Source: Phycisphaerae bacterium
GTDB lineage: Bacteria > Planctomycetota > Phycisphaerae > SM23-33
Assembly (NCBI GenBank): GCA_011050235.1
Contig: DRGC01000022.1
Location: 1-64,000 of the forward strand
Length of the DNA stretch: 64,000 nt
Reading direction: 5' to 3'
A program made the translations under genes and the position numbers. Position 1 is the first letter of the stretch. Each line of letters opens with the position of its first letter. The notes under the pieces are model-generated. The model saw only the letters and a list, made by a program, of their open reading frames with translations. It had not been told where the DNA came from and made no database searches. Below, in pieces: positions 14,937-57,440 of the stretch.

Positions 14937-15004
14937 GTAGTGACAATTTTTCCCAAAACTCTTCGGCAGCCCCGAAATTGACCGAAAACGTTCTTCCCAA
15001 AGAG

Positions 15005-15104
15005 ACAAGATGCAAGACACAAGAAACAAGATACAAAGATTGGTCCGCATCCCCAGCCAACGCCGCAATGAAGACGGCCGTTGTATCTTGTTTCTTGTAT
15101 CTTG
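15005..15104. repeat. Hairpin with heptamer-periodic arms (copy R1)
   Basis: CAAGAAACAAGATACAA (15020-15036) and TTGTATCTTGTTTCTTG (15081-15097) form a perfect 17-base inverted repeat around a 44-base loop. The right arm reads as heptamers TTGTATC, TTGTTTC, TTGTATC, and the left arm continues the same period upstream. The loop contains GGTCCGCATCCCC, similar to the loop of the copy near 36890. It lies between the Crp/Fnr gene and the hcp operon promoter. Confidence 0.75.
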
Positions 15105-15117
15105 ATATTTCGAAGGG

Positions 15118-15798
15118 CTATTGGCCTTCGTAAAGTCCCTGAAGGCCTGGGACGTCCAGAAGGGCGATCTGGCGGCCTGTAACTTCAATCAGACCCGCAG
15201 CTTCCAGCTTTTTGAGTGCCCGGCTGAGCGTTTCGGCTACTGTGCCGATCCGGGCGGCCAGTTGGCGTTTGGTCTGCGTCAGTTCGAACGTGAACGCCCC
15301 GGCGCGCTTGCTCTCAGCCAGCAGCACGCCGGCGAGTCGAGCGGGCACTTCCTTGAGCGACAGGTCGTCGATCAGGGCCGCGAACTCCTGAAGTTTGCCC
15401 GACAGCCCCGCCAGCATCCCGAGCGCCGTTTCGGGATTGCGCGTAATCAATTGTTGGATGACCTGCCGCCGCACCACCAGCAGCTGCCCATCGGTGACGG
15501 CCTCCGCGTTGGCCGGAAACTTCCCGCCGGCCCACACAGCCGCCTCGCCAAACGTCTTGCCCGGGCCGTACAAGTGGAGGATCTGCTCATCGCCCTTGGG
15601 CGAGAGACGAAAGACCTTCACCTGCCCTTGCAGGATCAAATAGAATTGCTCAGCCGGCTGGTCCGCCGAGAGCAGCCTCTCCCCGGCCCGGACAGCCTGA
15701 ACCGCGCACGACCCAGCCAGCTCGTCGGCGGCTGCATCGTCCAACGCAGCGAACACCGGCACCGACTTAATCGCATTCTTCAGGACGGATGTGTTCAT
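15118..15798 (-). CDS. Crp/Fnr-family transcription regulator, Dnr-like
   Basis: This 226-residue protein has a cyclic-nucleotide-binding-like beta roll (about 20-130: LILQGQVKVFRLSPKGDEQI, GPGKTFGEAAVW) and a C-terminal winged helix with recognition helix GTVAETLSRALKKLE. The E-x-x-S-R residues match those with which Fnr reads TTGA half-sites. Only one Cys occurs in the N-terminal region, so the 4Fe-4S cluster of Fnr cannot form; a Dnr/NnrR-type NO-responsive regulator is the better guess. It lies immediately upstream of a TTGAC-N4-GTCAA operator and the hcp operon, so it probably controls them. The start at 15798 is the first ATG; a GTG at 15819 is also possible. Confidence 0.88.
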   Translation of the reverse strand: MNTSVLKNAIKSVPVFAALDDAAADELAGSCAVQAVRAGERLLSADQPAEQFYLILQGQVKVFRLSPKGDEQILHLYGPGKTFGEAAVWAGGKFPANAEAVTDGQLLVVRRQVIQQLITRNPETALGMLAGLSGKLQEFAALIDDLSLKEVPARLAGVLLAESKRAGAFTFELTQTKRQLAARIGTVAETLSRALKKLEAAGLIEVTGRQIALLDVPGLQGLYEGQ

Positions 15799-15900
15799 GG
15801 GTTCACGTGCCTGGCGCACCCCGCCGTCAACAATGTAGGTCGCCGCTGCCGCCGCGACAATTCTTTTCCCGCGTGGGCCCCGCCGAATGGCCGCCAGGTG

Positions 15901-24427: not shown

Positions 24428-24516
24428 TCACCACAAAGGTCACAAAGAGCACAAAGCAGTAGAAACAGAAGCTTTATTTGTTTTTCACTTTGTGACCTTT
24501 GTGGTCTTTGTGGTGA
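24428..24516. repeat. Hairpin with nine-base-periodic arms (R2)
   Basis: ACCACAAAGGTCACAAAG (24430-24447) pairs perfectly with CTTTGTGACCTTTGTGGT (24488-24505). The right arm repeats TTTGTGACC, TTTGTGGTC, TTTGTGGTG, a nine-base period. It fills most of the gap between the GH20 and GH95-type genes and is markedly AT-richer than its surroundings. Confidence 0.75.
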
Positions 24517-36840: not shown

Positions 36841-36980
36841 GAAGTTCCAAGCTCCAACTTCCAAGTTCCAAGATGCAAGAAACAAAGGCTGGCCGCATCG
36901 CCGGTAGACGCTCAATAGGGGGGAACTTGTTTCTTGGAATTTGTTTCTTGGAACTTGCTTCTTGGAACTTGGAACTTGCA
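36841..36980. repeat. Hairpin with heptamer-periodic arms (copy R3)
   Basis: Left arm (36841-36886) and right arm (36923-36979) are imperfect inverted repeats. The right arm reads in heptamers CTTGTTT, CTTGGAA, TTTGTTT, CTTGGAA, CTTGCTT, CTTGGAA, CTTGGAA. The loop carries GGCCGCATCGCCGG, similar to the loop of the copy at 15 kb. The gap 36837-37144 holds this hairpin and the next promoter and nothing else I can see. Confidence 0.75.
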
Positions 36981-44430: not shown

Positions 44431-44460
44431 TCTTTGTATCTTGTATCTTGGAATTTGAAG
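44431..44460 (+). repeat. Heptamer-periodic half-repeat (R5)
   Basis: TTTGTATCTTGTATCTTGG at about 44433-44451 is built from the same CTTGTAT/CTTGGAA heptamers as the right arms of R1 and R3, but no opposing arm was seen. Confidence 0.5.
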
Positions 44461-48750: not shown

Positions 48751-49072
48751 ACGTGTGGGTCATGGTCCTAACTTAAGGGGTGGACGCTTCAATCAGGGGC
48801 TTGTCGCTGCTTCAGCCCAACGGGCTGACATGAATCAGCCTAGGGCGAAGCCCTAGGATAGGGGCATTACCGACAGGCAAGCCCCAACGGGGCGCAATGA
48901 GCTATTCGCAATGGGCTACCGACCAATCATATCGCTCCTTCAGAGCTTCCGCGCCGTTGGATGACGCAGTCCCAGGGCTTCGCCCTAGGCTGACGCATAT
49001 GAGGCCGTTGGCCTCGAAAAGAAGCTAATCGAGGCCACCAATCCCTTAACTTGGGGCCATTGACGTGTGGGT
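48751..49072 (-). mobile_element. Complete MITE-like element with TIRs and 10-bp target duplication (copy 1)
   Basis: The element spans 48761-49062 (302 bases) and is flanked by a perfect direct repeat ACGTGTGGGT (48751-48760 and 49063-49072). The ends are inverted: left CATGGTCCTAACTTAAGGG, right CCCTTAACTTGGGGCCATTG, pairing over about 18 bases. Inside are small hairpins built around AGCCCAACGGGCT, CCTAGGGCGAAGCCCTAGG (twice, the second as its complement loop), GCCCCAACGGGGC and GAGGCCGTTGGCCTC. No open frame of note is inside. Orientation is opposite to the copies at 55 and 57 kb, hence '-'. Ends and duplication are seen; non-autonomous transposition is inferred. Confidence 0.85.
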
Positions 49073-53064: not shown

Positions 53065-53961
53065 TCAGGCGCCCAGGAAATCGGCGATCAGCTTGACGAC
53101 CTTTTTCGCTTCGCTGCCGGTGGGGTCTTTGGCGGTGTCGAAGACCATCACGGCCAGGCCCGCCAGCAGGCCGCTGGCGATCAGTTCGCGGACGGAGGTG
53201 ACGAACTCGTCGCTCGTCAGGCCGTCGGGCACGGGCTGGACGTGGGCCGACATCTCCGACGCGTCCAGGATGTCCAGGTCGATGTGCAGGTAGACGTTTT
53301 CGACGCGCGAGCGCAGATCGGCGACGATCTCCCCCATCGCCGCGGCCGGGCCCGCCTGGCGGATGCGGTCGGCCGTCCATACGCGGACCTTCGAGTTGTC
53401 CAGGGCGATCTGCTCTTGCCCGTCCAGGTCGCGCGTGCCGTAGAGGGTGACATTCTCTTCGGCCAGTTGCGGCTCGTCGCGGAAAAGCTTGGTCAGTTCC
53501 TCCGGCCCGCGGCCGACGAGGATGGCGTTTTCCATCCCGCCGATCAGGCCCGACGGGGAGGTCTCCGGCAGGTTGAAATCGCCGTGGGCGTCCATGAACA
53601 CCTGCCCGATCGGCGGCCCCAGGGCGCGGCGAAACCCCTCGAGGATGCCCAGCATCACGCTGTCTTCCCCGCCGATTATCAGGGGAACGTAGCCGTCACC
53701 GACGACCTGCTCGACGGTGTCGGCAATGACGCGACTTGCGGCCTTGACCTGCTCCGGGTTGCGCAGATTGGGATTGCTGTCGTCATAGGGCGGCAGATCG
53801 ACGTCGATATCGCCGAAGTCGACGACCTCGTCCACGACGCCGCGGACGGCCTCGACCAGGCCGGCGCGCCGAAACGCCACCGCCGAAGCGGCAATGCCCT
53901 CACACTCCCAGCCGACCCAGATCGGATCGCCGATGATGCCCAGTTTCTTGATCGTCGCCAT
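53065..53961 (-). CDS. Ureohydrolase (arginase/agmatinase)-fold protein with altered metal motif
   Basis: This 298-residue protein has the arginase-family blocks VPLIIGGEDSVMLGILEGF, QVFMDAHGDFN and YLHIDLDILDASE. The DAHxD and DxDxxD metal motifs are kept. The first motif, GGDHS in arginases, reads GGEDS, so the His that holds Mn A is replaced by Asp (and the Asp before it by Glu). The catalysed reaction may be altered; agmatinase, formimidoylglutamase and arginase cannot be distinguished. Single gene, start 53961 with a weak ribosome site. Confidence 0.82.
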   Translation of the reverse strand: MATIKKLGIIGDPIWVGWECEGIAASAVAFRRAGLVEAVRGVVDEVVDFGDIDVDLPPYDDSNPNLRNPEQVKAASRVIADTVEQVVGDGYVPLIIGGEDSVMLGILEGFRRALGPPIGQVFMDAHGDFNLPETSPSGLIGGMENAILVGRGPEELTKLFRDEPQLAEENVTLYGTRDLDGQEQIALDNSKVRVWTADRIRQAGPAAAMGEIVADLRSRVENVYLHIDLDILDASEMSAHVQPVPDGLTSDEFVTSVRELIASGLLAGLAVMVFDTAKDPTGSEAKKVVKLIADFLGA

Positions 53962-54020
53962 GCGTGACTCCTGTTTTCCCGGGCCGGTATGTGTGACATA
54001 ACTGCGCCCACAAGAAAACG

Positions 54021-54126
54021 GAAAGCTGAAATCTTAAAGCTTAAAGCTGAAAATCAAAAGCATTGAAACAAAACCGTCCAGGCCCCCTGCCCATTTCAGC
54101 TTTCAGCTTTCAGCTTTCAGCTTTCT
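54021..54126. repeat. Hairpin with heptamer-periodic arms (copy R4)
   Basis: Left arm GAAAGCTGAAATCTTAAAGC (from 54021) and right arm TTTCAGCTTTCAGCTTTCAG (54094-54126) are inverted, the right arm being four perfect copies of the heptamer TTTCAGC. The loop differs from that of R1 and R3, so this is a related design with other sequence. The gap 53962-54245 holds little else. Confidence 0.75.
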
Positions 54127-54245
54127 GTCGCCGTCCTTGCGGTTTGGCACATGGGGTGATTATCATTCCGCGTTTCGGGCCCGCTGTCGGCCGGTTCAGC
54201 CGGGCGAGGCCGGACCAACGCCGCCGAGCAAATAAGGAGTAGATC

Positions 54246-57187: not shown

Positions 57188-57440
57188 CAATGGCCCTAGA
57201 TTAAGGGATTGGTGGCCTCGATTAGCTTCTTTTCAAGGCCAACGGCCTTATATGTGCCAGCCTAGGGCGAAGCCCTAGGATTGCGTCGGCCCAAAAGGTG
57301 CCAGAAGCTCTGAAGGAGCGCCATGACCGATCGATAACCCATTGCGAACATTTCATTTCGCCCCGTTGGGGCTTCCCTGTCGGTAATGCCAAGGTCCTGG
57401 GGCTTCGCCCCAGGCTGATACATGTCAGGCCGTTGGCCTG
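57188..57440 (+). mobile_element. MITE-like element, right end truncated (copy 3)
   Basis: The left terminal repeat CAATGGCCCTAGATTAAGGG (57188-57207) is intact, and the order of internal hairpins (CAAGGCCAACGGCCTT, CCTAGGGCGAAGCCCTAGG, GCCCCGTTGGGGC, CTGGGGCTTCGCCCCAG, TCAGGCCGTTGGCCTGA) matches copy 2. The right terminal repeat is missing after about 57440. The gap 57121-57491 holds this element, the hairpin at 57137 and nothing else seen. Confidence 0.78.

Follow-up and report, generated by a model that had tools for sequence, protein, structure and literature searches.

The window, by which we mean the whole 64,000-nucleotide stretch of DNA analysed here, contains three hairpins whose arms are built from tandem heptamers, one heptamer array that stands alone and one hairpin of period 9 (Table 1). 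The arms of R1 are 24 nt long and 96% complementary around a loop of 44 nt; those of R5 are 35 nt long and 89% complementary around a loop of 41 nt. When folded as single-stranded DNA, R1, R3 and R5 gave z scores of -7.7, -6.1 and -6.6, respectively, relative to 200 dinucleotide shuffles. R1, R3 and the period-9 hairpin obey a rule that we describe below, namely that these elements lie behind stop codons, and R5, which occupies a divergent gap, is an exception to it.

Table 1. Heptad-repeat elements and the period-9 hairpin in the window, with their neighbouring genes
Feature	Words	Span	Arms	Neighbours
R1 hairpin	CAAGANN heptads	14999..15104	15013-15036/15081-15104	13 nt from the stop of a CRP/FNR-like gene, 15118-15819 (-)
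Period-9 hairpin	CACAAAGNN words	24428..24516		12 nt past stop 24416 of a GH20-like gene
R3 hairpin	CAAGTTC/CAAGAAA heptads	36842..36978	36842-36885/36927-36970 (alternative registers overlap)	starts 5 nt downstream of stop 36836 of a ThiC-family gene
Solo array	TTGTATC heptads	44434..44457		between convergent stops 44365 (+) and 44468 (-)
R5 hairpin	AAAGCTN heptads	54018..54128	54018-54052/54094-54128	divergent gap, starts 53961 (-) and 54246 (+)

The original prediction had named four sites with heptamer units. All four are real and far above chance, and they comprise hairpins at 15.0, 36.9 and 54.1 kb and, at 44.4 kb, a solo array, which has no partner arm nearby in the inverted-repeat listing of the window. 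The period-9 hairpin had been overlooked; it has the architecture of the heptad hairpins and differs in period. Cyanobacterial STRR are direct, intergenic heptamer arrays, and the proposal that the window sites are organised differently, as hairpins, is correct for three of the four sites; the 44.4-kb site alone fits a direct array. An exact loop core, GGCCGCATC, had also been assigned to both R1 and R3. It is present in R3 only, as R1 reads GGTCCGCATC; what the two loops have in common is the seven-base word CCGCATC, within a local alignment that is weak and spans about 35 columns. The R3 loop matches that of its paralogue on another contig (C57, L028), and the R1 loop partly matches a third copy.

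Abundance, placement and anatomy of the hairpins

We used a detector script that reports inverted repeats with a minimum arm length of 18 nt, 78% complementarity and a loop of at most 150 nt, and that determines which internal period the two arms fit best. The sample of the own genome (662,426 bases) consisted of the window and 36 stretches picked by contig number or contiguity; L055, one of these stretches, was already known to hold an AAAGCT match. A period of 7 common to sites with different words had been noted, with a genome search for period-7 enrichment as the check. This search returned 44 inverted repeats, nine of which had periodic arms, and all nine had period 7 (three in the window and three on one 15.8-kb contig). 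In five Markov shuffles the script found between 3 and 10 inverted repeats, none of them periodic, and in 100 kb of E. coli K-12 it found two, again without periodic arms. The window's period-9 hairpin was detected as an inverted repeat that fell below the periodicity cut. The enrichment extends to relatives: in a genome of the same family (G007; 396,458 bases in stretches selected by AAAGCTN matches) 42 of 109 inverted repeats were periodic, with period 7 in 37, period 8 in three, period 9 in one and period 4 in one. A class sample of 346,934 bases contained 36 inverted repeats, including five of period 7, four of them in three stretches selected for AATGNCC matches, one of period 9 and one of period 10.

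Genes were called by a codon-usage script; tested on E. coli, it recovered 44 of the 45 annotated stops. All 53 period-7 hairpins (16 from the own genome and 37 from G007) lay outside called genes, the coding fractions being 0.83 and 0.75. Among the 51 hairpins with both neighbours, 37 lay in same-direction gaps, 9 in convergent gaps and 5 in divergent gaps, relative to approximately 31.7, 7.0 and 12.3 expected from the count of gaps large enough. Within same-direction gaps, the upstream stop was closer than the downstream start in 34 of 37 cases, and the median distance to the stop was 0 nt in the own genome and 10 nt in G007; a distance of at most 25 nt separated 30 of the 37 hairpins from the stop and 10 from the start. 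In the 11 same-direction gaps with at least 100 nt free, hairpins stood on average at a relative position of 0.21, measured from the stop. We found the same placement in nine stretches from a scan of named genomes for AATGNCC hairpins, in which 12 of 15 hairpins occupied same-direction gaps and 9 of these 12 were closer to the stop. Some hairpin was present at 28 of 132 junctions (approximately 21%) in the sampled stretches of one genus, which were partly chosen for hairpins. A perfect 25-nt inverted repeat (CGTGGCATGGGC...) lies at 1922-2015 of L026 (own contig C16), within a DinB/ImuB-like reading frame (1034-2347).

Arm length peaked at 31-33 nt (range 17-39 nt; 51 hairpins), which corresponds to four heptads and a partial unit, and the loop measured 22-56 nt in 46 of the 51. 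Across the four words examined for polarity, the word points inward in 61 and outward in one of 62 hairpins. The 33 hairpins of the AAAGCTN family comprise 115 paired units; positions 1-3 were invariant in 230 of 230 units, and position 7 was variable (G 154, A 54, T 22, C 0). The two arms agreed at position 7 in 74 of 115 units, relative to 58.9 in shuffled pairs, although the hairpins had been preselected for pairing, which raises the match counts. Where the word is free to vary, pairing is thus maintained only in part. Loops had a mean similarity score of 12.2 versus 10.2 shuffled for AAAGCTN in G007 (26 loops) and of 19.7 versus 11.4 shuffled for ATTTNCG (5 loops). As the word positions are held and the loops are barely above shuffled ones, the copies look related, with arms held and loops not. 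We also considered whether every word supplies a stop codon, such as TGA or TAA in AAAGCTR; by eye, this fails for the CAAGATA and ATTTTCG words.

Turnover between related species

We compared four species of one genus in the same family as the window genome (G008, G150, G163 and G164). Thirty-four periodic hairpins were entered, and the 21 that had an orthologous junction in another species were grouped by us into 15 sites; the categories that follow overlap, and one site may count in several. The junction was near-empty in at least one congener at 8 of the 15 sites (L237:16429, L238:5046, L238:8398, L240:5619, L241:3374, L261:1370, L296:1336 and L269:2458), a count to be read with the caveat that MAG assemblies may lose or misjoin hairpins. 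At L240:5619, for example, the flanking genes are 6 nt apart in G150 and are separated by a block of approximately 116 nt in G008, and the L241:3374 hairpin is absent from both congeners examined. Gain and loss were told apart by parsimony alone, in the absence of a species tree and using no more than three other species for each site. In G008, the sequence TCAAGA stands at both ends of the hairpin block at L241 3374-3607 and once in the congener, a possible target duplication.

A different hairpin or palindrome occupied the junction in at least one congener at six of the 15 sites (L238:5046, L238:8398, L241:9102, L241:16773, L263:578 and L296:1336), and at L237:11574 the congener has another GC-rich sequence. 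With some hairpin at about 21% of junctions, a hot spot is not required to explain why one site has different occupants. A recognisably related hairpin was common to species at four of the 15 sites (L238:10007, L271:1355, L268:2355 and L269:2458). Even there the arms change: those at L238:10007 differ by units, and the G164 copy, an AATGNCC hairpin, has a period-9 hairpin nested in its loop; at L268:2355, words resembling CGCAGAG make up both arms in G150, and words resembling CACAAAG do so in G008.

A test for slippage had been suggested, and we observed differences in heptad steps both between orthologous copies and between one paralogous pair. The right arm of an orthologous hairpin differs by 7 nt between G008 and G163. 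R3 and its C57 paralogue each lie upstream of a giant gene; their right arms differ by 14 nt, and their left arms contain exchanged units. This pair represents a duplicated locus rather than a separate insertion, because homology continues downstream of the hairpin.

Distribution of the words across genomes

Arrays of AAAGCTN were found in 10 of 35 family genomes, with 212 matches in G007 alone, and arrays of AATGNCC in 22 of 150 class genomes; the control for these counts, a backward pattern, is not clean, because it reads as another heptad word and itself matches several genomes. The relatives hold words of the own genome together with others (AAAGCTN, AATGNCC and ATTTNCG). The strict AAAGCTN hairpin pattern matched one of 150 genomes in a set that does not include G007. 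For the AATGNCC hairpin, a single scan of the GTDB set returned 10 stretches in nine genomes, whose titles name Zavarzinella formosa (twice; two copies on one scaffold of strain DSM 19928), Planctomycetota (two MAGs), Phycisphaerales, Phycisphaeraceae, Opitutus, Verrucomicrobiota, Pyrinomonadaceae and Nostoc. We take these to represent four phyla: Planctomycetota, Verrucomicrobiota, Acidobacteriota and Cyanobacteria. Around the AATGNCC matches we found further period-7 hairpins with quite different words. Long pure heptad arrays were also seen in class relatives, at G087:C34:3-109 (AATGACC) and G063:C10:46036-46107 (AATGCCC).

Among IMG/VR contigs, whose viral status is putative, two carried an AATGNCC hairpin, one an AAAGCTN hairpin and none a CAAGANA hairpin. 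Carriage on plasmids, like that by viruses, was considered and rejected: AATGACC occurs on plasmids of Nostoc, Rhizobium, Serratia and Pantoea (10 records), and the three that we inspected have direct arrays and no heptad hairpin. A plasmid search with the period-9 hairpin gave no match. In these three plasmids (L300, Rhizobium; L301, Pantoea; L302, Nostoc) the AATGACC arrays are direct, without an inverted partner, and their word is the hairpin word of other phyla.

Origin of the hairpins and their relation to known elements

The hairpins are scattered in the genome, and their gain, loss and rewriting between related species is rapid enough to resemble the behaviour of tiny mobile elements. 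Starting from what we observed of their architecture, period, inward polarity, intergenic position behind stops, presence or absence and replacement between species, and whole-unit arm changes, we lean towards the view that the window sites are REPIN-like interspersed DNA hairpins that disperse at the DNA level without duplication and whose arms are edited by 7-nt slippage. An element would have the plan [word]n, variable loop, inverted [word]n, with a word of 7 nt (less often 8-10 nt) and about four units (approximately 30 nt) per arm. Copies would spread as DNA, in the form of a single-stranded hairpin or a cruciform, machinery encoded elsewhere would recognise the word arrays, and insertion would occur without target duplication. 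Copies would survive mainly behind stops, sparing the upstream gene and the next ribosome-binding site. Slippage by 7 nt and copying between arms may then lengthen, shorten and rewrite the arms, and the loop would drift. The evidence for descent by copying is weak, because the loops of a single family show hardly any relationship.

We prefer dispersal at the DNA level without duplication because G-U bias, terminators and flanking duplications were not found and Y1 transposases are not near. Flanking direct repeats of at least 5 nt accompanied 13 of 122 hairpins relative to 10.1 expected, which is no excess and argues against target duplication. Mobilisation by a RAYT was likewise rejected: Y1_Tnp matches number six in the own genome and are present in 9 of 10 relatives, and the 36 Y1-transposase loci (113,884 bases) hold just one period-7 hairpin. 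That neither an excess of flanking duplications nor a mobilising enzyme was found also weighs against mobility. Inspection by eye of the hairpin sequences with their flanks revealed no GTAG tag at the hairpin foot. Palindromes of AAAATAGGGACAGACCCTATTTT, at L067 1138-1197 and L045 17794-17901, one of them adjoining a Y1 transposase gene, are likely to be an ordinary RAYT element in the own genome.

The hairpins could instead be host-functional RNA elements at 3' ends, which end or protect transcripts and are swapped for any equivalent hairpin. The position of 30 of 37 same-direction hairpins within 25 nt behind the stop, the depletion of divergent gaps, the slight surplus in convergent gaps and the occupation of one post-stop spot by different hairpins across species all fit this idea. 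Selection on sense RNA, however, predicts an excess of G-U over A-C, and we saw 17 versus 18 in the 37 same-direction hairpins; the sense strand of same-direction hairpins did not fold better either (15 versus 19), and neither strand was clearly ahead. An intrinsic terminator, modelled as a G+C-containing stem with a small loop and a T run, had no match at R1, R3 or R5, and the single terminator-like match, at 53954-53968, lies outside R5. Given also that junctions are near-empty in congeners and that words are held, not pairing alone, we regard a 3'-end function as unlikely to be the origin of the hairpins. Function-driven turnover would nevertheless give different hairpins at one site, which counts against mobility, and coincidence at about 21% occupancy could do the same. 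The two explanations are compatible, in that a mobile element can be tolerated behind a stop as harmless or useful.

Binding-site arrays, either for putative proteins that tile DNA in 7-bp steps (ribbon-helix-helix, Omega-like) or for nucleoid proteins as suggested for Geobacter metallireducens, would explain why positions 1-6 of the word are nearly fixed and position 7 varies, with pairing there partly kept. The usual four or so units per arm also equals the minimum of four contiguous 7-bp repeats given for Omega in the consulted part of PMC9499535. Yet many unrelated words per genome would require many proteins, binding to an array needs neither the hairpin geometry nor the inward polarity (61 of 62), and a post-stop position is odd for regulation, and we think this explanation rather improbable. 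Least probable of all, to the point of being very doubtful, is a by-product of replication slippage and template switching, in which a chance palindrome grows by 7 nt and arm copying keeps it symmetrical, with neither mobility nor function. Copies do differ in heptad steps, and heptanucleotides are described as the commonest long simple repeats in most repeat-rich genomes, with slippage as the proposed cause (PMC4679880, in part). Such a process does not readily account for one word at dozens of places per genome and in several genera, for variation concentrated at one word position or for block insertions at short junctions.

The hairpins have the inverted doublet, conserved arms and variable spacer of REPs and REPINs, the terminal inverted repeats of MITEs and the tandem 7-9-mers paired on opposite strands of the Geobacter oligomer arrays. 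Paired tandem-oligomer arrays are already known from Geobacter metallireducens, and the heptad hairpin is a variant of that kind of arrangement. The closest printed description that we found is that of its 'global regulator binding sites', classes 1-3, in which tandem units of 7 to 9 nt form opposite-strand pairs with variable spacing; binding of IHF/HU is the authors' guess (PMC2700814, in part). The paired layout is common to both, whereas the words GTTGCTYN, TCTCCGTS[Y] and MTYCTGA differ from those in the window, and the turnover and post-stop position reported here are not among the features described in the consulted text of that paper (PMC2700814). REPINs, as far as the consulted account goes, are extragenic, hairpin-capable REP doublets with inverted arms and a weakly conserved spacer, common spacings being 71 and 110 bp; the heptad hairpins share this arm-and-spacer layout, the dispersal and the hairpin capacity, but in place of the REP 16-mer their arms are tandem 7-mers that vary in length by whole units, and they have no RAYT neighbour (PMC3116915). 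GTAG/CGTC REPs are likewise intergenic palindromes found mostly in same-direction or convergent gaps; they are defined by a terminal tag and the heptad hairpins by a period (PMC3733652, in part). TAACTGA arrays are tandem intergenic 7-mers, as here, but are direct repeats, which lie mostly upstream of starts, whereas ours are inverted post-stop pairs (PMC4679880, in part). For the Omega protein of pSM19035, four contiguous 7-bp repeats (WATCACW) are the minimum, and arrays of this kind can be functional binding sites; by eye, these parS arrays agree with the heptad hairpins in period and unit number and not in word (PMC9499535, in part). Our literature search, which left most subscription journals outside, found no account of heptad-armed hairpins as a class or of their turnover, and a description elsewhere is possible.

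If the hairpins are mobile, they would be an overlooked cause of rapid intergenic variation across several phyla: most compared sites differ between congeners, and around one junction in five of the sampled genus stretches bears a hairpin. Their period of 7 would then point to an undescribed, searchable recognition or copying step. As a speculative extension that we judge improbable, there may be one mobile DNA family across Planctomycetota, Verrucomicrobiota, Acidobacteriota and Cyanobacteria that is defined by geometry (arms of approximately 30 nt, a step of 7 nt or of 8-10 nt, inward polarity and a free loop), with an exchangeable word and an enzyme that reads or writes in 7-nt steps.

The only Rfam family with matches in the window is Acido-Lenti-1, at 48813-48857 (minus strand) and 57396-57440 (plus strand), away from the hairpins. 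Acido-Lenti-1 matches form inverted pairs, with arms of 45-54 nt around 93-114 nt, in the same layout as the heptad hairpins, and a pair at L057 14050-14229 resembles them by eye. Acido-Lenti-1 may itself represent one of the two arms of a hairpin element.
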